Source: a virus
Reading direction: 5' to 3' (one strand)
Virus record (IMG/VR): IMGVR_UViG_3300030090_001884
Span: 1-26,234 of that record
DNA length: 26,234 bases
Part shown: positions 3,025-24,198 of the stretch, one piece after another
Position numbering within the stretch: position 1 is the stretch's first letter
Layout: each line of letters starts with the position of its first letter
Notes under the pieces: model-generated
Databases searched by the model: none
Told to the model about the DNA's origin: nothing
The model's input: only the letters and a program-made list of their open reading frames with translations
Position numbers and translations under genes: made by a program

Positions 3025-4932
3025 ATGGCAATTACAACTAATTCTTATACGGGAGATGGGTCTACTACGGTATATTCCATCTCCTTTCCGTATGTAAAAA
3101 CCGCAGATGTAAAGGCCACACTTGATGGCTCAGCAACTACTGCTTTTACAGTATCGGGTACAAATCTAACGTTTACTTCTGCACCTGCCAATAATGTAGC
3201 AATTAAACTGTTTAGAGACACTAATAACGAGACTATTCTTGCTAGTTTCCAGTCTGGATCTGCACTTCGTGCTGTAGATATGAATACGAACTTTACTCAA
3301 AGTTTGTATGTCTCCCAAGAAACTACAACGACCGCAGATTCGGCAGTAACTGCGGCTAATTCAGCGGTCACAACGGCTAACAGTGCTGTTACTACAGCTA
3401 ATGCAGCTTCTTCAACAGCTAATATCGCGTCTGAGGACGCCACTAGTGCTGTTCTTATAGCTAATACAGCTTCTACAACAGCTAATACGGCATCCACTAA
3501 TGCTTCTGCTGCTGTTACGACAGCCAATACAGCATCAACCAATGCTTCTGCTGCTGTTACCACAGCTAATAGTGCTGATACCAAGGCTGATAACGCTGTA
3601 ACTACAGCTAACACTGCATCCACTAATGCTAGTAATGCTGTCAGTACAGCTAATACAGCCAATACAACGGCTAATAGTGCTGTCAGTACAGCTAATACTG
3701 CCTCTACCACTGCATCCAACGCTTTAACAACGGCTAATAACGCTCAGACTGCTGTTACTAATGCAGCTATCTTTGCTATTGTAAATAACGTTGCAGCGAT
3801 ACCTGGAAGCCCCTCTGACCAGGATAAAATTGAGATTACGGACTCAACTGGGGTTCAGTCCTCAAGCGTTGTTGCAGGCCTTCCTGTAGGCTTTGTAGGT
3901 GATTCTGGGTTGTTTGTAAGACTTGAATACCAGAATCAGACTAGTAAGTGGAATTTTGTACAGTATGGTGCTAATGATATTGATGCTCGATATTTAAAAC
4001 AAAGTACATCTAAAACTATTTCTTTTACTGGTGATGCAACAGGCAGCTATGCTTTTACTGGTAGTGGTGCTCACTCTTGCGCTTTAACTGTAGCTGATGA
4101 TAGCCATAATCATATTATTAGCAATGTTGATGGACTGCAAAATGCTTTAGATTTAAAAGTAGCAAAAGATAGCTCAGGAAATGTAGCGATTACTGGATCT
4201 GCTACTTTTGCTGGCAATGCCTGCATAGGTGGAACTACCGTAACAGATGCAAATATACTAAATCTGCAAGGATCTTCTGCATCGGTCAACATTGGTGTTG
4301 TCCTTAATGACACTAACGGAGATGGTCAAATTTATGGTATTCAGAATGGCAATAGTGCTCTAAAATTCTTTGATTATACAGCTAGTACTGAGCGGATGAG
4401 GATCGCAAGTAACGGTCAGATACTGCTTAACACCACCAACTCAACCGCAATTCATGCAGCGAGAAGCATTGTTTTTACATTGGCACAAAACGGTGACATT
4501 GCCATCAACCATTCAACGGATAATGGTTCTGGAGATGTATTTGCTCGTTTTGGCTATAACGGAACGCAAATTGGCAGCATTACACAAAACGGAACTACAG
4601 CCGTCGCCTACAACACATCCTCCGACCACCGCTTAAAAGAAAACGTCGTTGACATTGCTGATGGTATCACTCGCGTAAAACAACTTCAGCCAAAGCGTTT
4701 CAACTTCATCGCAGACCCTGATACAACAGTTGACGGCTTCCTTGCCCACGAAGCACAAACTGTTGTACCAGAAGCAGTCACTGGAGCGCACAACGAAGTC
4801 GATGATGATGGCAACGCTGTAATGCAGGGTATTGACCAGTCAAAACTTGTGCCATTGCTGACTGCGGCATTACAAGAGGCAATCGCAAAGATTGAAAGTC
4901 TAGAAACCCGTATTGCCGTATTAGAATCGTAG
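3025..4932 (+). CDS. Tail fibre protein, T7 gp17-type N-terminus with C-terminal S74 chaperone
   Basis: Trimeric adsorption fibre, 635 aa. Residues 1-100 (MAITTNSYTGDGSTTVYSIS onward) match the T7 tail-fibre N-terminal domain that anchors the fibre to the tail. Residues about 100-250 are a low-complexity run of seven-residue units of the type TANxAxT, expected to form a long trimeric coiled coil. The middle part is probably beta-rich. From about residue 530 the motif SSDHRLKENV starts an intramolecular chaperone autoprocessing (peptidase S74) domain, with the usual Ser/Lys pair near S533 and K538; in known fibres it helps trimer folding and then cuts itself off. The gene starts 3 bases after the preceding stop. 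The receptor-binding part lies between repeat and chaperone and cannot be assigned to a host receptor. Confidence 0.93.
   Translation: MAITTNSYTGDGSTTVYSISFPYVKTADVKATLDGSATTAFTVSGTNLTFTSAPANNVAIKLFRDTNNETILASFQSGSALRAVDMNTNFTQSLYVSQETTTTADSAVTAANSAVTTANSAVTTANAASSTANIASEDATSAVLIANTASTTANTASTNASAAVTTANTASTNASAAVTTANSADTKADNAVTTANTASTNASNAVSTANTANTTANSAVSTANTASTTASNALTTANNAQTAVTNAAIFAIVNNVAAIPGSPSDQDKIEITDSTGVQSSSVVAGLPVGFVGDSGLFVRLEYQNQTSKWNFVQYGANDIDARYLKQSTSKTISFTGDATGSYAFTGSGAHSCALTVADDSHNHIISNVDGLQNALDLKVAKDSSGNVAITGSATFAGNACIGGTTVTDANILNLQGSSASVNIGVVLNDTNGDGQIYGIQNGNSALKFFDYTASTERMRIASNGQILLNTTNSTAIHAARSIVFTLAQNGDIAINHSTDNGSGDVFARFGYNGTQIGSITQNGTTAVAYNTSSDHRLKENVVDIADGITRVKQLQPKRFNFIADPDTTVDGFLAHEAQTVVPEAVTGAHNEVDDDGNAVMQGIDQSKLVPLLTAALQEAIAKIESLETRIAVLES
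3340..3770 (+). repeat. Degenerate heptad-coding repeats in tail fibre gene
   Basis: About 430 bp of imperfect 21-bp units coding TANxAxT/S heptads. Two adjacent 42-bp units, about 3488-3571, encode the same 14 residues (TASTNASAAVTTAN) twice with only synonymous differences, which shows recent duplication and selection on the protein. The reverse strand carries a long open frame here only because of this low complexity. Length changes here would alter shaft length. Confidence 0.85.
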
Positions 4933-6217: not shown

Positions 6218-6561
6218 AACTACTTATCTTGTTATTGCTAGCTAGTCCTGCAGTAGCTCAACAAGTGACTCCTAATTTTACACAGGGGTCTATGCAATCT
6301 AATACCACCACGACCGTCGAGATTGAAAGGACTGTAGCTACTGAAATTTTCGGCGGTGATTACTCATCATGGTCAGGAACAAACGTAACTCCAAGTGGAG
6401 ACATCACAAATTCGGAAACAACTTATTCAGTAACAACAGCAGGAGAACAGTTCCAACTGGAGATTGTGGAACGTGCAGCGGGAGTAGTGGAGACGATCGA
6501 CACCGTCGAAAACATTACCCAAAATACTACTACTACATCGCTCTCTGTCTTCTCTCAATAA
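6214..6561 (+). CDS. Secreted or periplasmic small protein with signal peptide, function unknown
   Basis: 115 aa. Residues 1-15 (MKLLILLLLASPAVA) are a textbook Sec signal peptide with AVA before the likely cleavage site. The mature part is Thr/Ser/Asn-rich (NTTTTVEIERTV, NITQNTTTTSLSV) with no cysteine and looks beta-rich. The start overlaps the holin-like gene by ATGA, so translation is probably coupled. Its 3' end overlaps a second reading frame that encodes another signal-peptide-like segment; see the next entry. The location beside a holin-like gene suggests a cell-envelope role during lysis, possibly spanin-like, but no lipobox is present. Confidence 0.7.
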   Translation: MKLLILLLLASPAVAQQVTPNFTQGSMQSNTTTTVEIERTVATEIFGGDYSSWSGTNVTPSGDITNSETTYSVTTAGEQFQLEIVERAAGVVETIDTVENITQNTTTTSLSVFSQ

Positions 6562-8481: not shown

Positions 8482-8496
8482 GTTCCACTTAAGTAA
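8482..8496 (+). promoter_or_regulatory. NTTCCACTTAGGTAA motif, copy 1
   Basis: GTTCCACTTAAGTAA, one mismatch to the window consensus. It lies in the 54-base gap before the 8530 gene, 7 bases before a strong hairpin. Seven further copies occur at unit starts elsewhere in this window. A promoter for the phage RNA polymerase is the favoured reading; a repressor operator is the alternative. Confidence 0.55.
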
Positions 8497-9528: not shown

Positions 9529-11262
9529 ATGACCAACGTTTTACAGGCCTTACAGGCCGATTTTAAGCTGTTTCTGCAGGCTTTATGGGATCAGCTAGAC
9601 CTACCCTCCCCAACCCGCGCACAATATGCAATCGCAGACTATCTTCAAAATGGACCTAAACGTCTTCAAATACAAGCTTTCCGTGGAGTTGGAAAATCAT
9701 GGATTACTGGAGCCTTTGTTCTGTGGACACTTTTTAATAACGCTGAAAAGAAAATAATGATTATTTCGGCATCTAAAGAACGTGCCGATAACATGTCCAT
9801 CTTCCTACAAAAACTAATTATTGAAACACCATGGCTTTCTCATTTACGTCCGAAGTCCGACGATGCAAGGTGGTCAAGGATAAGCTTCGATGTGAACTGC
9901 TCACCCCACCAGGCACCGTCCGTAAAGTCGGTCGGCATCACTGGACAGCTAACCGGAAGCCGCGCCGATTTAATGATTCTCGACGACATTGAAGTTCCTG
10001 GTAACTCAATGACCGAGTTGATGCGAGAAAAGCTATTACAACTTTGTACTGAAGCAGAGTCCATCCTTACACCCAAGGATGACTCCCGCATTATGTACCT
10101 CGGTACTCCACAGACAACCTTTACTGTCTATAGAAAGCTTGCCGAACGTAACTACAGGCCTTTTGTTTGGCCTGCACGTATCCCTAGATCTCTGGCTAAC
10201 TACGAAGGCCTTATCGCTCCTCAACTACAAGCTGATATTGACAATGGTGCCAAATCTTGGGATGTAACAGATCCTGATCGTTTTGATGATGATGATTTAC
10301 TTGAACGTGAAGCGTCTATGGGACGAAGTAACTTCATGCTTCAGTTCCAACTTGACACAACCCTCTCTGACTCAGAAAAGTTTCCCCTTAAATGTTCTGA
10401 CCTCGTTGTTACTTCAGTTAACCCTACTACTGCTCCTGATTCCGTCGTCTGGTGCTCAGACCCAAAGAACGTTATCAAAGACCTCCCTACTGTCGGCTTA
10501 CCTGGAGACTATTTCTATAGTCCAATGCAACTCCAAGGAGAATGGTTACCTTACACCGAGACAATCTGCTCAGTTGACCCGTCGGGTCGTGGAACAGATG
10601 AAACAGCTGCAGCTTATATCTCACAACGCAACGGTTTCTTGTACGTGCACGAAATGCGAGCTTACCGAGATGGATACAGTGACAACACACTTCTGGATAT
10701 ACTAAGAGGTTGTAAAAAATATAACGTCACTAAACTTGTAATTGAAACTAACTTTGGTGATGGTATCGTCTCCGAACTATTCCGTAAACACCTACAACAA
10801 ACAAAACAAGCTATTGATGTCGAAGAAGTACGTGCCAACGTACGCAAGGAAGACAGAATTATTGACAGCCTTGAGCCTATACTTAATCAACACCGGCTTG
10901 TTATAGACAGATCAGTTATTGAATGGGACTTTAGATCTAATCCAGATGAAGCTCCAGAACGTCGCCTGATGTACATGCTCTTCTATCAGATGTCACGCAT
11001 GTGTAAAGAAAAAGGTGCCGTTAAACATGATGACAGATTAGACTGCTTAGCTCAAGGTGTTAAATACTTTACAGACTGTATGTCTATCTCCGCTTACGAA
11101 CAAGTAAGACAAAGAAAGATGGATGATTGGAATGAAATGCTTGAAGACTTTATAGACAATCCTCAATCTGCTACTAATCACTTAGTCTTTGGCATGGACT
11201 TAGAACAAAGAAGACAAGCAAAAGGTCTCCCTACTAAGAACGCAGTCCCCACCTGGGTTTAG
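9529..11262 (+). CDS. Terminase large subunit (T7 gp19-like)
   Basis: 577 aa; ATPase motor and nuclease that cuts concatemers and pumps DNA into the prohead. Walker A is FRGVGKSW at residues 51-58, followed by the T7-like IISASKERADNMSIF; the region SPSVKSVGITGQLTGSRADL leads into Walker B MILDDIE near residue 150, and YLGTPQT is the coupling motif. The nuclease domain shows VDPSGRGTDE near 348, ETNFGDG and the C-terminal HDDRLDCLA. Length is close to T7 gp19 (586 aa) and all key residues appear intact. It ends a transcription unit: a 26-base repeat and a strong terminator follow. Confidence 0.97.
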   Translation: MTNVLQALQADFKLFLQALWDQLDLPSPTRAQYAIADYLQNGPKRLQIQAFRGVGKSWITGAFVLWTLFNNAEKKIMIISASKERADNMSIFLQKLIIETPWLSHLRPKSDDARWSRISFDVNCSPHQAPSVKSVGITGQLTGSRADLMILDDIEVPGNSMTELMREKLLQLCTEAESILTPKDDSRIMYLGTPQTTFTVYRKLAERNYRPFVWPARIPRSLANYEGLIAPQLQADIDNGAKSWDVTDPDRFDDDDLLEREASMGRSNFMLQFQLDTTLSDSEKFPLKCSDLVVTSVNPTTAPDSVVWCSDPKNVIKDLPTVGLPGDYFYSPMQLQGEWLPYTETICSVDPSGRGTDETAAAYISQRNGFLYVHEMRAYRDGYSDNTLLDILRGCKKYNVTKLVIETNFGDGIVSELFRKHLQQTKQAIDVEEVRANVRKEDRIIDSLEPILNQHRLVIDRSVIEWDFRSNPDEAPERRLMYMLFYQMSRMCKEKGAVKHDDRLDCLAQGVKYFTDCMSISAYEQVRQRKMDDWNEMLEDFIDNPQSATNHLVFGMDLEQRRQAKGLPTKNAVPTWV

Positions 11263-11263
11263 T

Positions 11264-11289
11264 GCAAGCGGACAGTTATACAGGGAGAA
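11264..11289 (+). repeat. 26-nt exact repeat, copy A (terminase 3' flank)
   Basis: Begins GCAAGCGGACAG and ends TTATACAGGGAGAA, immediately after the terminase stop. The same 26 bases occur inside the RNA polymerase gene at 18245-18270. The segment TATACAGGGAGA resembles the initiation part of T7 promoters (TATAGGGAGA). It is 28 bases upstream of a terminator, so transcription from here would be stopped early unless read through. Confidence 0.9.
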
Positions 11290-11317
11290 GAGAAGGGTGG
11301 ACTCGACTTCCTGGACT

Positions 11318-11341
11318 GGGGAAAGACAACCTTTCCCCTTT
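11318..11341 (+). terminator. Strong terminator after large terminase
   Basis: GGGGAAAG-ACAAC-CTTTCCCC is a perfect 8-bp stem with a 5-base loop, followed by TTT. It resembles T7-type late terminators and marks the end of the late region. The next 80 bases (11342-11421) are AT-rich, with an eight-T run at 11371-11378 and CTCCACCCGGTAA near 11386-11398, a partial match (one base shorter) to the NTTCCACTTAGGTAA motif. Confidence 0.85.
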
Positions 11342-12322: not shown

Positions 12323-12337
12323 GTTCCACTTGGGCTA
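12323..12337 (+). promoter_or_regulatory. NTTCCACTTAGGTAA motif, copy 2
   Basis: GTTCCACTTGGGCTA. It overlaps a dyad GTGGAA-CCG-TTCCAC (12315-12329) and lies 15 bases before the long hairpin at 12352, so it stands in front of the putative structured RNA. Confidence 0.4.
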
Positions 12338-12659: not shown

Positions 12660-12681
12660 GGCACATACGTCAGGCGTCCAG

Positions 12682-12698
12682 CTGGGTTCAAGTCCCGG
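12682..12698 (+). other. tRNA T-arm-like hairpin
   Basis: CTGGG-TTCAAGT-CCCGG is a perfect T-stem/T-loop of tRNA type (one U-G pair), followed by CAGTGTCA where an acceptor 3' strand and discriminator would be. No matching 5' acceptor strand or normal D and anticodon arms are found within 100 bases upstream, so it is not a complete tRNA. It could be a tRNA-mimic part of a structured RNA or a tRNA relic. Confidence 0.4.
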
Positions 12699-12707
12699 CA
12701 GTGTCAT

Positions 12708-12725
12708 TGCGTCATCAAGGACGCA
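12708..12725 (+). other. Duplicated leader hairpin, copy 1
   Basis: TGCGTC-ATCAAG-GACGCA, a perfect 6-bp stem with a 6-base loop, 19 bases before the ATG at 12745. The same element, with one loop change, stands before the next gene (12956-12973). Confidence 0.6.
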
Positions 12726-12927: not shown

Positions 12928-12948
12928 GGCTAGGTGCAATGCCTAGCT
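12928..12948 (+). other. Hairpin in early intergenic leader
   Basis: GGCTAGG-type stem: GCTAGG (12929-12934) pairs with CCTAGC (12942-12947), loop of 7, extended by a G-U pair. It stands 8 bases before the second duplicated hairpin, so the leader of the 12996 gene carries two hairpins in a row. Confidence 0.45.
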
Positions 12949-12955
12949 ACCCAAT

Positions 12956-12973
12956 TGCGTCATCAAAGACGCA
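12956..12973 (+). other. Duplicated leader hairpin, copy 2
   Basis: TGCGTC-ATCAAA-GACGCA. Together with the preceding ATT, 20 bases match copy 1 at 12705-12725 except for one loop base. It lies 22 bases before ATG 12996. Conserved stem and position suggest an RNA processing or translation-control element. Confidence 0.6.
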
Positions 12974-13308: not shown

Positions 13309-13314
13309 ATCACT

Positions 13315-13386
13315 GGGCTATTAGTGAAACGGTTATCACATGTGCCTGTCTCGCACACATTAGCGGTTCGAATCCGCTATAGCTCG
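13315..13386 (+). tRNA. tRNA-Asp (anticodon GTC)
   Basis: A complete 72-base cloverleaf: acceptor GGGCTAT/ATAGCTC (one G-U), T8 A9, D-arm GTGA/TCAC with loop AACGGTTA, anticodon arm TGTGC/GCACA with loop CTGTCTC, variable CATT, T-arm AGCGG/CCGCT with loop TTCGAAT. The anticodon GTC is at 13348-13350, and the discriminator is G73; G34-U35-C36 and G73 are aspartate identity elements. CCA is not encoded, so it must be added. Position 37 is U, whereas tRNAs normally have a purine there. The gene is flanked by hairpins on both sides (13287-13308 and TGACAC/GTGTCA at 13388-13404), which may mark processing ends. A phage tRNA-Asp could support GAY codon use or replace a cleaved host tRNA. Confidence 0.87.
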
Positions 13387-13407
13387 TTGACACCTTGTGT
13401 GTCACAT

Positions 13408-17271: not shown

Positions 17272-17314
17272 GCGGATGTGGCGGAATTGGTAGACGCGCT
17301 AGTTTCAGGTTCTA
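17272..17314 (+). other. Putative attP: 5' half of a tRNA-Leu gene
   Basis: From GCGGATGTGGCGGAATTGGT to the anticodon-stem 3' side, 43 bases match the 5' half of bacterial tRNA-Leu: acceptor strand, D-arm with GGTAGACGC, and the anticodon loop TTCAGGT (CAG). After position 17314 the sequence no longer follows a tRNA, and no variable arm or T-arm exists. It is 82 bases after integrase. T7-like cyanophages such as P-SSP7 are known to carry a ~42-bp tRNA-Leu identity at this place, proposed as the core attachment site. Integration would restore the host tRNA. Confidence 0.85.
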
Positions 17315-17340
17315 CCTAGACTAGATTTCACTAGTGCAAT

Positions 17341-17427: not shown

Positions 17428-19776
17428 TTGCCAACACCAGTACAGATTGATGAGCAAATAAGGCTTGAACGAGAGCAAATACGCCAAGGTCTCAAGCTTT
17501 TACATAAGAACACAAAACAACTAGAAGACAAGAGTTATGCAAGTGCTTCTGTTTACGGAATTGTATCTATTGACCAGTTGCTACCCCTTGTAGCTGCACG
17601 TATTGAAGACACTGACGATCGGATACAAGAACGGCACAATGGGCGAGCGTTCAAGGAAATCATTCACTTTCTTGCTGATCTAGAGCCTGAAGCAGCCGCA
17701 GCTATCGCACTCAAGGTCACCTTTGATCGTGTCTTTAGCGTGAAACTGGGTCAGGCAACAATTACTAATGTCACCAGTGCTGTAGGTCAGGCATTGGAGA
17801 ATGAGTGCATGATGCGTCACTACGAACGCAACGTGCCAGGATTGCTCAATGTTATCAAAGAGAATTATTTTCATAGATCCATTGGTACACACCAAAAAGT
17901 TAAAGTAATTACTACTTTGATGAATCGTTATGATGTAGACCACTGGAAACCTTGGGGTCAAATTAACCGAGTCAAACTTGGTGGTTGGTTAGCTGATTGT
18001 ATTTGTGAAGTAAGTGGTTACTTCATGAAACATAGTTACTACAAAGGAAAACGTCAGCAAGTTGTAGAAATAGTACCTACACCTGCATTTCTAGAACGTA
18101 AGGACGAGATCATGGCTCAAGCGGAGTTGTTCAGCCCATTGGCTTGGCCGATGTTGATTGAGCCAAATGATTGGACAACTGACGGAAAACATGGTGGCTA
18201 CTTGCTCAATGAAGTCATGCGTGGGTATGACATGGTGCGCAGGGGCAAGCGGACAGTTATACAGGGAGAAAACCCTGTCGCATTTCTGAATCGCATTCAG
18301 AAGGTTGCCTACACGCTTAACCCATTCATCGTGAACGTCGCTGAGACGTTGATGGAGAAGCAAATACAAGTAGGTAAATTCATCCCCATTACTGAGATAC
18401 CTCTACCACCCAAACCTCCTGACATTGCTGAGAATGCGGTGTCCAGGCAGGATTACAGACGACGAGCTGCGGAGGTATGCAACAAGAACGCACAAGCATT
18501 TAAAAAGTCATGCCGAACAAGGATGACTATGAATGCAGTTGAAAGATTCAAGGAAGTAGAGAAGTTTTTTCTGCCATGGAGCCTGGATTACAGAGGAAGG
18601 GCTTACCCAATCCCTGTATTTCTCACTCCACAAGATACTGACTTTGGTAAATCACTGCTGAAGTTTTATGAACATTCATTTGTAGCAGGAGAGGAGACTG
18701 AGGAATGGCTTGCCTTTCAAGTTGCAACAACATACGGGCTTGATAAAGCCTCAATGCAAGAACGTCAGCAATGGGTTGAAAGTAACAAAGATTTAATTAA
18801 ACGAATTGCCAAAGACCCGATTACAAACAGACCTGAATGGGAAACAGCAGCTGAACCATGGTCTTTCCTTGCTGCCTGTGATGAATACTATCATTGTGTC
18901 ATCAAGTGTGACCGTCATTATACTTCTTTGCCTATCGCTGTCGATGCTTCCTGTAGTGGGTTACAAATTCTCGCAGGACTCTGTAGAGACGCAAGTACAG
19001 CAAAATTAGTCAATGTACTCCCTAGTGACAGACCACAAGATGCATACAAAACGATAGCTGAAGAAGCTAAACCTCATGTACCTGAACATCTCCGTCCTTA
19101 CATGGACAGGAAGACAACAAAGAGGACAGTGATGACTGTCCCTTACAACGCCAAACCCTTTTCTAATCGTGGATATATCCGTGATGCATTGAAGGAGAAA
19201 GGTGTGGAGGTTGAAAAGGAAGACCTCACTGTTGTTGTCAAGGCTGTTAGGGGAGCAATGGATGTCATTGTTCCTGGTCCGATGCGGGTTATGAAGTGGA
19301 TTGAACAAGAGGTAAGCAAAGCTATTGATCGTGGTCTTAACCAATTAACTTGGGTCACACCTTCAGGTTTTGTGGTCACACAAAAGCTAATGAAGAGAAA
19401 TACACAACGTGTAAACCTTCAATTACTTGGTAGCTGCAAGATTTCAGTTATCAATGGTGACTCTGATGAGGTTGACAAGAACCACCACAAGAATGCAACA
19501 GCACCAAATCTAATCCACTCATTGGATGCATCATTACTTCACTTATCTGCAATACGCTTCGACGCTCCGATTTCCCTCATACACGACTCGGTTTTATGTC
19601 GTGCTACTGACATGTCTGTTCTTTCAACGATTGTTCGTGAGACATACATGCACCTATTTGCGGAGCATGATTACCTAACGGATTGGGCGCAACAAATTGG
19701 CGCTGAATCTGAACCACCGATCATTGACACACTTCAACCTGAGTCAGTGATTGATTCTACTTATTTTTTTTGTTAA
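17428..19776 (+). CDS. T7-type single-subunit RNA polymerase
   Basis: 782 aa. Motifs align with T7 RNAP: LDYRGRAYP, catalytic Asp in VDASCSG (about residue 505; T7 D537), the O-helix TKRTVMTVPYN with Lys and Tyr (T7 K631/Y639), the specificity-loop region NQLTWVTPSGFVVTQKLMKR and the second catalytic Asp in SLIHDSV (about 718; T7 D812). The N-terminal domain is shorter than in T7 (883 aa). It transcribes middle and late phage genes from phage promoters. The start is TTG with no clear Shine-Dalgarno, so translation may be weak or controlled. The stop overlaps the SSB start (TAATG). The 26-nt repeat lies inside it. Confidence 0.97.
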   Translation: MPTPVQIDEQIRLEREQIRQGLKLLHKNTKQLEDKSYASASVYGIVSIDQLLPLVAARIEDTDDRIQERHNGRAFKEIIHFLADLEPEAAAAIALKVTFDRVFSVKLGQATITNVTSAVGQALENECMMRHYERNVPGLLNVIKENYFHRSIGTHQKVKVITTLMNRYDVDHWKPWGQINRVKLGGWLADCICEVSGYFMKHSYYKGKRQQVVEIVPTPAFLERKDEIMAQAELFSPLAWPMLIEPNDWTTDGKHGGYLLNEVMRGYDMVRRGKRTVIQGENPVAFLNRIQKVAYTLNPFIVNVAETLMEKQIQVGKFIPITEIPLPPKPPDIAENAVSRQDYRRRAAEVCNKNAQAFKKSCRTRMTMNAVERFKEVEKFFLPWSLDYRGRAYPIPVFLTPQDTDFGKSLLKFYEHSFVAGEETEEWLAFQVATTYGLDKASMQERQQWVESNKDLIKRIAKDPITNRPEWETAAEPWSFLAACDEYYHCVIKCDRHYTSLPIAVDASCSGLQILAGLCRDASTAKLVNVLPSDRPQDAYKTIAEEAKPHVPEHLRPYMDRKTTKRTVMTVPYNAKPFSNRGYIRDALKEKGVEVEKEDLTVVVKAVRGAMDVIVPGPMRVMKWIEQEVSKAIDRGLNQLTWVTPSGFVVTQKLMKRNTQRVNLQLLGSCKISVINGDSDEVDKNHHKNATAPNLIHSLDASLLHLSAIRFDAPISLIHDSVLCRATDMSVLSTIVRETYMHLFAEHDYLTDWAQQIGAESEPPIIDTLQPESVIDSTYFFC
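18245..18270 (+). repeat. 26-nt exact repeat, copy B (inside RNA polymerase gene)
   Basis: Identical to 11264-11289. Here it codes for part of GKRTVIQGEN, a non-catalytic N-terminal region. ACAGGG-AGAAAA-CCCTGT (18261-18278) adds a 6-bp hairpin that copy A lacks. Confidence 0.9.
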
Positions 19777-22256: not shown

Positions 22257-22440
22257 ATCACCGCATCAACAAGCAATTCTTTGGAATCCTGGCGGTTTGA
22301 TTACTAATGCAGAACAAGAAAAACTAAAGAAACCAAATCCACCTACCGCTGAAATGGTAGAGAAAGCACAATTTATCGATAAAACTTACATCTGGAAACA
22401 TGCTGGTGTTCGACCTAGAGACGAACGGTCTCCTGAATGA
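22219..22440 (+). CDS. Small protein between primase-helicase and DNA polymerase (73 aa)
   Basis: MKLKPSMQQQIFESPHQQAI leads a 73-residue protein with a Pro/Lys-rich middle (KLKKPNPPTAEMVEKAQFID) and a basic tail. It fills the 143-base gap between two well-defined genes and overlaps both (38 and 41 bases) in other frames. ATG 22237 (MQQQIFESPHQ) would shorten the upstream overlap and is equally plausible. No motif recognised; T7-like phages carry various small proteins here. Confidence 0.5.
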   Translation: MKLKPSMQQQIFESPHQQAILWNPGGLITNAEQEKLKKPNPPTAEMVEKAQFIDKTYIWKHAGVRPRDERSPE

Positions 22441-22915
22441 TGTTACCTGCATCCACTGTCTTGTTATCTACGATAGTGAGACTGACCAAACAATGGTTTA
22501 CAACGACGAAGGTTCTGAAGAACCCATCGTTCGTGGGATTCAAAACCTTGAGACTGCGGACGTCATTGTCGGACATAACGTCATCGGCTATGACATCCCA
22601 GTTATCAAAAAAATCCATCCTTGGTTTTCGCCTAGCGCCTTGGTCATTGACACCTTACTTTTGTCGCGGTTATATCACCCGAACATGATGGCAATCGATA
22701 AAAGGAGAAACATCAAGCACATGCCTGGTCAACTCTATTCAAGACACAGCCTTGAAGCGTGGGGTTACAGGCTTGGTGAATACAAAGGAGAGTTCGGTAA
22801 AACAACTGACTGGAAAGAATGGTCAGAAGAAATGCAGGACTACTGCAAACAAGACGTCAACGTTACTAAACAATTATGCGACCACTTCCACCCCTACCTG
22901 AGTGGGTTGCGTTAG
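22400..22915 (+). CDS. DNA polymerase I-type 3'-5' exonuclease domain (T7 gp5 N-terminus)
   Basis: 171 aa. MLVFDLETNGLL carries the ExoI acidic pair D5 and E7; ExoII is in VIVGHNVIGYDIPVI; ExoIII is YCKQDVNVTK with D near residue 149. SLEAWGYRLGEYKGEFGKT is the T7 gp5 signature. It provides proofreading. The frame stops at 22915, where T7 gp5 would continue into the polymerase part; that part follows in the -1 frame and overlaps by 40 bases. So either two polypeptides assemble, or a frameshift joins them, or one base is wrong in the sequence. The catalytic residues are intact. Confidence 0.9.
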   Translation: MLVFDLETNGLLNDVTCIHCLVIYDSETDQTMVYNDEGSEEPIVRGIQNLETADVIVGHNVIGYDIPVIKKIHPWFSPSALVIDTLLLSRLYHPNMMAIDKRRNIKHMPGQLYSRHSLEAWGYRLGEYKGEFGKTTDWKEWSEEMQDYCKQDVNVTKQLCDHFHPYLSGLR

Positions 22916-24198
22916 AGCACAAGGTTGCTCAGATACTTACAGAACAAGAACAACATGGATGGTATTTCGATGAGCGATCTGCATGGAAACTTGCATCGTC
23001 TCTCACACAAGAACTTCAAGATCTTGAAAAAATACTTCGGCAACGCCACCCTGACGTCGCAGGAGATAGATTCACTCCAAAGCGAAATAACAAAACTAGC
23101 GGCTACATCAAAAGCACAGGACACACAGAATCCCACGAACATTGTGGTGAATTACTAGACATTGAAGAATGTTCCTTCACACGCCTCAAAGAACTAAACC
23201 CAACATCACGGGATCATATTTCATGGATATTGCAGCAATACTATGGCTGGAAGCCGACGAAGTTGACAGCTACTGGGAAGCCTATCGTAGACGAAGTTAT
23301 TCTGACCGAGATTGGATCAGAAATTTCTATGATGTTTGCGAGATGCTTGACGGTAACGAAAATGCTTGGGATGCTCTCGAACGGCGTGAACGCATGGCTG
23401 AAGCTAGTTACGAGACATAATCGCATACATCACCATTGTTCTATAGCAACATCCACACATCGAGCAGCACACAGACGTCCAAATTTGTCTCAAACCCCGA
23501 GTGAAAATGAATTTAGAAAGTTATTCCAAGCATCCCCTGGTCAAGTTATGGTGGGTGCCGATCTTAGTTCTGTCGAGCTTAGGATGCTCGCCCACTACCT
23601 CGGAAAGCATAGTTCCGAGTTTGGAGATACCCTCCTCAATGGAGACATCCATCAAGTCAACGCTGACCGAGTTGGAGTCAGTAGAAGAGCAATTAAAACA
23701 ATTACCTACGCCTGGTGCTACGGTGCTGGAGATGAAAAAATAGGTCATAGTTTTGACCCACAACTATCATCAGCCAAAGCTAAAAAGAAAGGTAAGGAAA
23801 TCAGAGAAGCATTTGTGAAAGCAATTCCAGGTATGCCACAACTGCTAGCTGAACTTTCTACGGCTGTTGCACGCGGATACGTGAGAGCAATCGACGGTAG
23901 AAAAATTATCCTGGAAAGTCGGCATAAGGCCTTAAATTACCTTTTGCAGTCATCTGCCGGTGTGATTTCACGTCGGTGGATGCTAATTAACCAAGAGACA
24001 ATTAAAGAAACTAATCTTTGTTGTTCTCAACTAGCCTACATTCATGACGAATTACAATTCGAGTGCGAGCCAAAACACTCAAAAGATTTGGCAACATCCC
24101 TGGTATATAGCGCAGCAGCGGCTGGCGAATACTACAACATGCGAATCCCCATCGCAGCAGAAGCGAAAATCGGAAACAACTGGGCGGAGGTTCATTGA
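22876..24198 (+). CDS. DNA polymerase family A, polymerase domain (T7 gp5 C-terminus)
   Basis: 440 aa, beginning MRPLPPLPEWVALEHKVAQI. It aligns with T7 gp5 from the region after the exonuclease: PTSRDHISWILQQYYGW, motif A GADLSSVELRMLAHYLG (catalytic Asp about 228), motif B RRAIKTITYAWCYGAGDEKIG with Lys and Tyr at the T7 K522/Y526 positions, and motif C YIHDELQF (Asp about 391). The Tyr in motif B is the residue that weakens dideoxynucleotide discrimination in T7. The stretch equivalent to the thioredoxin-binding loop seems shorter than in T7. The start is an ATG inside the exonuclease gene; translation would be coupled or frameshifted. Confidence 0.92.
   Translation: MRPLPPLPEWVALEHKVAQILTEQEQHGWYFDERSAWKLASSLTQELQDLEKILRQRHPDVAGDRFTPKRNNKTSGYIKSTGHTESHEHCGELLDIEECSFTRLKELNPTSRDHISWILQQYYGWKPTKLTATGKPIVDEVILTEIGSEISMMFARCLTVTKMLGMLSNGVNAWLKLVTRHNRIHHHCSIATSTHRAAHRRPNLSQTPSENEFRKLFQASPGQVMVGADLSSVELRMLAHYLGKHSSEFGDTLLNGDIHQVNADRVGVSRRAIKTITYAWCYGAGDEKIGHSFDPQLSSAKAKKKGKEIREAFVKAIPGMPQLLAELSTAVARGYVRAIDGRKIILESRHKALNYLLQSSAGVISRRWMLINQETIKETNLCCSQLAYIHDELQFECEPKHSKDLATSLVYSAAAAGEYYNMRIPIAAEAKIGNNWAEVH

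Follow-up and report, generated by a model that had tools for sequence, protein, structure and literature searches.

The closest described system is that of phage Syn5, whose RNA polymerase (RNAP) uses the 15-bp promoter ATTGGGCACCCGTAA, as established by in vitro transcription (PMC3950665). The Syn5 genome is reported to have two promoters only, one of which serves the transcription of more than 37 kb (PMC3950665), and the promoter is located within the RNAP gene (PMC6834552). It is for this orthologue only that initiation by the cognate RNAP has been demonstrated (PMC3950665). Prediction of the cognate promoter has been named the main obstacle and limiting factor in the use of such RNAPs, and promoters have been predicted for P-SSP7 and S-CBP42 (AAAATTCTTCAAGTTTACAA; CACTTCCACTCAACCAACCG) (PMC11475235). 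In T7, the AT-rich loop of the enzyme recognises positions −17 to −13 of the promoter and the specificity loop −11 to −7, while −4 to −1 are unwound (PMC10138996; see also PMC13029058). KP34 differs from the arrangement described below, in that its strong promoter is another 16-nt sequence, placed directly after the RNAP gene, and more copies occur elsewhere in the genome.

The DNA analysed here (the window, 26,234 nt of IMG/VR record IMGVR_UViG_3300030090_001884) represents part of the genome of a marine T7-like cyanophage. Its terminase and RNAP are closest to those of marine cyanopodoviruses such as S-RIP2, S-SBP1, MedDCM-OCT-S28-C3, S-TIP37 and P-SSP7, and the RNAP gene product matches Pfam RNA_pol (4e-70) and T7 RNAP in the PDB (E = 1.5e-63).

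The repeat pair in the window and in relatives

A sequence-only reading of the window had pointed to an identity of 26 bases between 11264–11289 and 18245–18270. Direct comparison within the window confirmed that the two segments are identical over exactly 26 nt (GCAAGCGGACAGTTATACAGGGAGAA); the window has no longer exact direct repeat, and about 8e-8 repeats of this kind would be expected by chance. As that reading had also stated, one copy is non-coding and follows the terminase gene, and the other lies in a non-catalytic part of the RNAP. The first begins 2 nt past the terminase stop (11260–11262); the second (residues ~273–281) falls between the Pfam domains RPOL_N (10–265) and RNA_pol (421–759). 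A search of the 26-kb fragment on both strands with the 15-nt core, allowing up to 2 mismatches, gave no third copy. The exact 26-mer matched no other contig in IMG/VR because the sequence is phage-specific; comparison of relatives by the position of the two sites succeeded where the exact search had not. Positions in the window are given in Table 1.

Table 1. Positions in the window of the genes, repeat copies, RNAP elements and hairpins, with the grounds for each assignment.
Feature	Position	Strand	Basis
Terminase large subunit	9529–11262	+	Pfam PF22530; tblastn to cyanopodovirus terminases
Copy 1, probable right-end phage RNAP promoter	11264–11289	+	Exact repeat; orthologous to the Syn5 promoter adjoining its terminase
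Copy 1, recognition block from −16	11265 (first base)		
Copy 1, TATA (−4 to −1)	11277–11280		
Copy 1, presumed +1	11281		
Hairpin 1: 7-bp stem, AA/GA internal loop, 3-bp stem, loop AAGGGUGGA	11281–11313	+	Fold, covariation
Hairpin 2, terminator-like: GGGGAAAG-ACAAC-CTTTCCCC, then TTTACT	11318–11338	+	Fold; terminator-like call
T7-type single-subunit RNAP, proposed reader of both promoters	17428–19776	+	Pfam PF00940, PF14700
RNAP counterpart covarying with −13	17614–17652	+	T7 RNAP alignment, covariation
RNAP codon 178, best covarying residue for −5, aligned with T7 ~206	17959–17961	+	Covariation
Counterpart of the T7 intercalating hairpin, codons 203–213, covarying with −7 and −6	18034–18066	+	Alignment, covariation
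Copy 2, probable promoter within the RNAP coding sequence, codons ~273–281	18245–18270	+	Exact repeat; Syn5 counterpart; codon-anchored alignment
Copy 2, TATA	18258–18261		
Copy 2, presumed +1	18262		
Specificity loop, codons 655–675, covarying with −11 to −8	19390–19452	+	Alignment, covariation

For each complete genome among the relatives, we determined the longest match between the RNAP gene and the 450 nt that follow the terminase gene. With few exceptions it fell at the same two places as in the window, namely RNAP codons ~273–281 and just past the terminase stop, and the sequence of the pair varied among phages while agreeing within each phage (for example, AACCCCTACGTATACAGGGG in P-SSP7, GTAACCACGGGTGTATACAGG in S-CBP4 and GGCGATAGCACCTGTATACAGGGAGA in S28-C3). 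Once IMG/VR loci were added, both sites were present in 49 genomes, 34 of which were non-redundant and used for statistics. In these 34 phages, 22 nt of the RNAP copy matched the phage's own post-terminase region at a mean of 19.0 of 22 positions, as against 12.8 of 22 for the regions of other phages (permutation z = 18.8, 0/20,000); other segments of the same RNAP gene reached 14–17 matches at most. About 20 of the 25 genomes examined had exactly two copies, at the RNAP and post-terminase sites. Relatives with the coding copy alone, which that reading had named as the contrary case, were looked for and not found. Nor is the junction at 11262, its other concern, an assembly scar, since relatives, a 24.4 kb contig (L025/L105) among them, share the gene order and have a promoter in that position. 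The pairs were weak in a few genomes (7B11-B, S-B28, DSL-LC07, L126 and L142). A possible third promoter-like copy, ATGACACCCGTAAA, was seen in 7B11-B (L006, oriented like the window, at ~3019) and in S-B28 (L013, at ~3072), in both cases with the thyX region on one side and the early genes on the other.

The same blind procedure applied to Syn5 returned ATTGGGCACCCGTAAGCAAG, with one copy in the RNAP gene (4929) and the other after the terminase gene (44797), and this pair contains the established promoter ATTGGGCACCCGTAA. The Syn5 pair is thus a proven promoter at the same sites, which makes the repeat in the window the positional orthologue of a proven promoter pair. The two-promoter architecture of Syn5, with exactly two copies in orthologous positions, the first within the RNAP gene and the second directly behind the terminase gene, was found both in the 26-kb window and in about 20 complete genomes. 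Unlike Syn5, with its GTAA-G, the P-SSP7/S-RIP group has a variable sequence from −16 to −5 followed by TATA and CAGGG/GGGG, and the promoter sequence of the window appears to be new. Our candidates resemble the published predictions in being proposed promoters for RNAPs of the same family, but the sequences are entirely different: our data point to AACCCCTACGTATACAGGGG for P-SSP7, whose group of T7-like phages is abundant in the ocean, and to CATCTGGCCCATGTAAGCAGGGAGA for S-CBP42 (compare PMC11475235). The same architecture was sought in the pelagiphage HTVC031P and the roseophage CRP-804 and was not found in either. CRP-804 (L190) has repeats of its own, AATTAATCACCCTTATTAGAAA and AATAATCACCCTTTCTAGG, at 6233/8176 and 34005/40657, mostly in or near intergenic gaps, and these look like promoters of that roseophage's RNAP.

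Like T7 phiOR, the right-end copy points rightwards and sits in the stretch from the terminase gene to the right end; phiOR is at 39229, 99 nt past the gene 19 stop (39130). The physical right end lies 1.0–1.4 kb downstream of the right-end copy in P-SSP7, Syn5, S-SBP1 and S-TIP37, and in the linear genomes of relatives the RNAP copy is ~37 kb away from it. T7 has many promoters, and we know of none within its gene 1; here there are only two.

Several further elements were observed in the window. The + strand carries a repeat family, TTCCACTTA[AGT]G[TC]AA, at 8483, 12531, 12730, 13931 and 17381, with a weaker copy at 12324; several copies are just 5′ of genes, and the family may mark early promoters or regulator sites peculiar to this phage. 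Between the integrase and RNAP genes, 17275–17315 (GGATGTGGCGGAATTGGTAGACGCGCTAGTTTCAGG...) resembles the 5′ half of a tRNA-Leu gene and looks like what would be expected of an attP core. The early region contains a complete tRNA-Asp (gtc) gene (13314–13387) and a 45-nt imperfect direct repeat (12681–12725 and 12929–12973), the first copy of which includes the tRNA T-arm-like GGTTCAAGTCCCGGC. The DNA polymerase (22400–24198) is apparently split into an exonuclease ORF (22400–22915) and an overlapping polymerase ORF (22876–24198); split DNA polymerases have been noted in other cyanopodoviruses (PMC10976474).

Promoter extent and the RNAP residues that covary with it

The two copies from 28 genomes were aligned on TATA (−4 to −1), leaving −16 to −13 out of the fit. 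They agreed with each other in 22–28 of the 28 genomes at each position from −16 to −5, and the identity spanned −16 to about +4, falling to the expected level at −17 and past about +5. This block matches the span of a T7 promoter, and it has the form of the T7 family, whose elements of about 17–23 bp comprise a recognition half (−17 to −5), a TATA-like −4 to −1 and a purine start, TATA and GGG being conserved. The likeness to T7 late promoters extends to the G-rich nature of the purine start, the −17 to −5 recognition region and the elements of the RNAP that read it. The start regions of the two copies differ systematically (TATACAGG versus TATAGGGG). Coding copies read ATA-CAG-GG(x), which encodes an obligatory Ile-Gln-Gly, while several non-coding copies are without the CA and thus become TATAGGGG or similar, as in T7 (S-RIP1, S-CBP3, P-GSP1 and L107). 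The resemblance to the T7-type TATAGGGAGA remarked on in the sequence-only reading was therefore the right clue, the non-coding copies of several relatives being exactly TATAGGGG.

Covariation between promoter bases and RNAP residues was computed over 78 RNAPs using the coding copy, excluding the promoter-encoded residues 264–290 and with controls run; the boundaries of the AT-rich loop, the intercalating hairpin and the specificity loop are those we take to apply in T7 RNAP. By alignment, R661, N663 and K671 in the specificity loop are equivalent to T7 R746, N748 and R756. The best columns were 70, 71, 63 and 64 for −13, 663 for −11, 669 and 661 for −10, 671 for −9 and −8, 205 and 210 for −7 and −6, and 178 for −5. 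The residues aligned to the AT-rich loop thus covary with −13, those of the specificity loop with −11 to −8 and those of the intercalating hairpin with −7 and −6. For 7 of 9 promoter positions, the top column lay in one of the elements by which a T7-type enzyme reads its promoter, compared with 26 of 302 control codon-window positions, in a comparison from which phylogeny is not fully removed. Across the whole enzyme, the best 20-residue segment was 661–680.

The pairings include K671 with A(−9), Q671 with T(−9), R661 with G(−10), E663 with C(−11), and K or R663 with G(−11). In pairs of RNAPs with 80% identity or more, −9/−8 had changed in 76 of 87 cases where residue 671 differed, compared with 11 of 66 where that residue was the same, and −5 differed in 0 of 86 cases where residue 178 was the same. 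The core CCGACACT recurs convergently at ~50% RNAP identity, in enzymes with R661, E663 and either K or R at 671 in common. The window fits this code at two positions, with R661 alongside G(−10), and K671 alongside A(−9) and C(−8). Covariation thus supports the view that the promoter is read by the specificity loop, the AT-rich loop and the intercalating hairpin. Such a pattern of residues and bases is not predicted by any other account of the repeat.

The sequence-only reading had offered three accounts of the repeat, and of these the phage promoter is strongly supported by the relatives' own pairs, the Syn5 case and the RNAP covariation. Copies identical within a genome and different between genomes, as concerted evolution gives, would also result from a recombination or gene-conversion scar, in which part of the RNAP gene was duplicated behind the terminase gene and stayed identical through conversion, without function. 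A scar, however, would not recur at both places with a phage-specific sequence and sharp, promoter-sized borders (−16 to +4) in unrelated contexts, and that account is accordingly unsupported; the systematic difference between the start regions, the covariation with promoter-reading residues distant in the gene and the validated Syn5 pair make it extremely improbable. The third account, a site by which the polymerase mRNA and the late transcript are recognised together, is likewise unsupported, since an mRNA tag would not covary with the residues by which the RNAP reads DNA. Packaging signals lie near the right genome end, as does one copy, and a packaging or recombination site, or a binding site for a terminase, integrase or replication protein, might be considered; we hold this to be highly improbable given the second copy within the RNAP gene, ~37 kb off, the location of the covarying residues in the RNAP's own promoter-reading elements and the Syn5 precedent. 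The real phage promoter might instead be the TTCCACTTAnGTAA family (8483, 12531, 12730, 13931, 17381), which offers five or six + strand copies, several of them preceding genes. Its core TTCCACTT, however, forms no such family in relatives, where it occurs 0–6 times on either strand, and a motif restricted to one phage would not be expected to pair with RNAP specificity; we consider this very improbable and dropped the family as a rival promoter. Taken as a whole, a promoter pair for the phage's own T7-type RNAP, with presumed starts at 18262 and 11281, is very probably the best explanation.

A predicted hairpin RNA at the right end

A + strand hairpin starting at about +1 follows the right-end promoter in 111 of 115 terminase 3′ flanks. 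Its loop is (A)AGGGUGGA, or AGUGGUGC in the Syn5/P60 group (Syn5 clade); since the hairpins were located by this motif, its invariance is partly a matter of selection, yet only 4 of the 115 flanks are without it. After a few nucleotides comes a GC-rich, terminator-like hairpin, usually with a T-run. The unit is found 3′ of the right-end copy and not of the RNAP copy. Syn5 has the downstream hairpin as well, and we found no description of it.

The stems vary freely with pairing kept, and stem covariation over 51 sequences was 0.306 versus 0.169 after shuffling (0/500), a value lowered by sliding partners. G-U combinations far outnumbered A-C combinations (58 versus 6), which assigns the structure to the + strand RNA. 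A collection-wide search of IMG/VR with the hairpin pattern gave 116 stretches; all 75 newly fetched loci had it directly behind the terminase gene, and none of the 75 checked had it away from terminases. No Rfam family scored above the gathering threshold for this hairpin, no conserved complementary target for the AGGGUGGA loop was found in the phage genomes, and the RNA appears to be undescribed in the literature searched. To our knowledge, no conserved AGGGUGGA hairpin plus terminator follows T7 phiOR. In a related phage contig (L145), a Glutamine-II riboswitch aptamer (51.8 bits) was observed at 3271–3326, ~1 kb past the terminase gene.

The right-end unit predicts a small RNA of ~60 nt. 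A bolder reading, possible if less likely than not, is that the right-end promoter chiefly makes this RNA, with its 5′ hairpin (invariant loop AAGGGUGGA) and 3′ terminator, and that the RNA works in trans by targeting a protein of the phage or the host, for example as an RNA associated with packaging or replication beside the terminase gene. The main alternative to a replication or packaging role, which we consider possible if rather doubtful, is that the promoter mainly serves the genes that follow (thyX, talC and small ORFs), with hairpin 1 as no more than a stabilising leader at the 5′ end and hairpin 2 acting as an attenuator. T7 leaders likewise begin with hairpins, thyX or talC lies downstream in many relatives, and the T-run after hairpin 2 is short in the window (TTTACT), so that termination may be partial. 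A plain stabilising hairpin, however, needs no fixed loop, and here the loop is almost invariant while the stems change freely; moreover, the hairpin stands behind terminases, whatever gene follows.

A proposed two-promoter program and its implications

Computation supports the identity of the promoter, its extent, the RNAP residues involved in reading it and the assignment of the hairpin to a + strand RNA; start sites, promoter strength, termination, early expression by the host and a role for the small RNA we infer. In the course of events we propose, host RNAP would presumably express the RNAP gene early, and the phage RNAP would then start at 18262, inside its own gene, and transcribe the replication and late genes. 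This start is downstream of the RNAP start codon and thus cannot feed back on full-length RNAP. The phage RNAP would also start at 11281, near the right genome end and in the position of T7 phiOR, giving a transcript that begins with the conserved hairpin and mostly stops at hairpin 2, though read-through into the following genes may occur. A role in right-end replication or packaging has been proposed for T7 phiOR, and our best guess is a similar role for the small RNA or its transcription.

This kind of promoter and the two-promoter layout are already known from Syn5; the promoter sequences, the extension to the P-SSP7/S-RIP group and the covariation of residues and bases appear to be new within the literature searched. 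By the two-site rule, the genome alone yields the promoter of almost any cyanopodovirus RNAP. The natural covariation set resembles a residue-to-base code for single-subunit RNAPs, which is testable by point mutation. RNAP residues 274–277 vary strongly beside the invariant Ile-Gln-Gly, which shows selection on the DNA of a coding gene imposing changes on the protein's amino acids. The hairpin RNA conserved at the right end offers a testable element in a widespread phage group, and a ~60-nt RNA acting in trans, if that reading is true, would add a new class to the non-coding RNAs of phages, with a spread across marine cyanopodoviruses.
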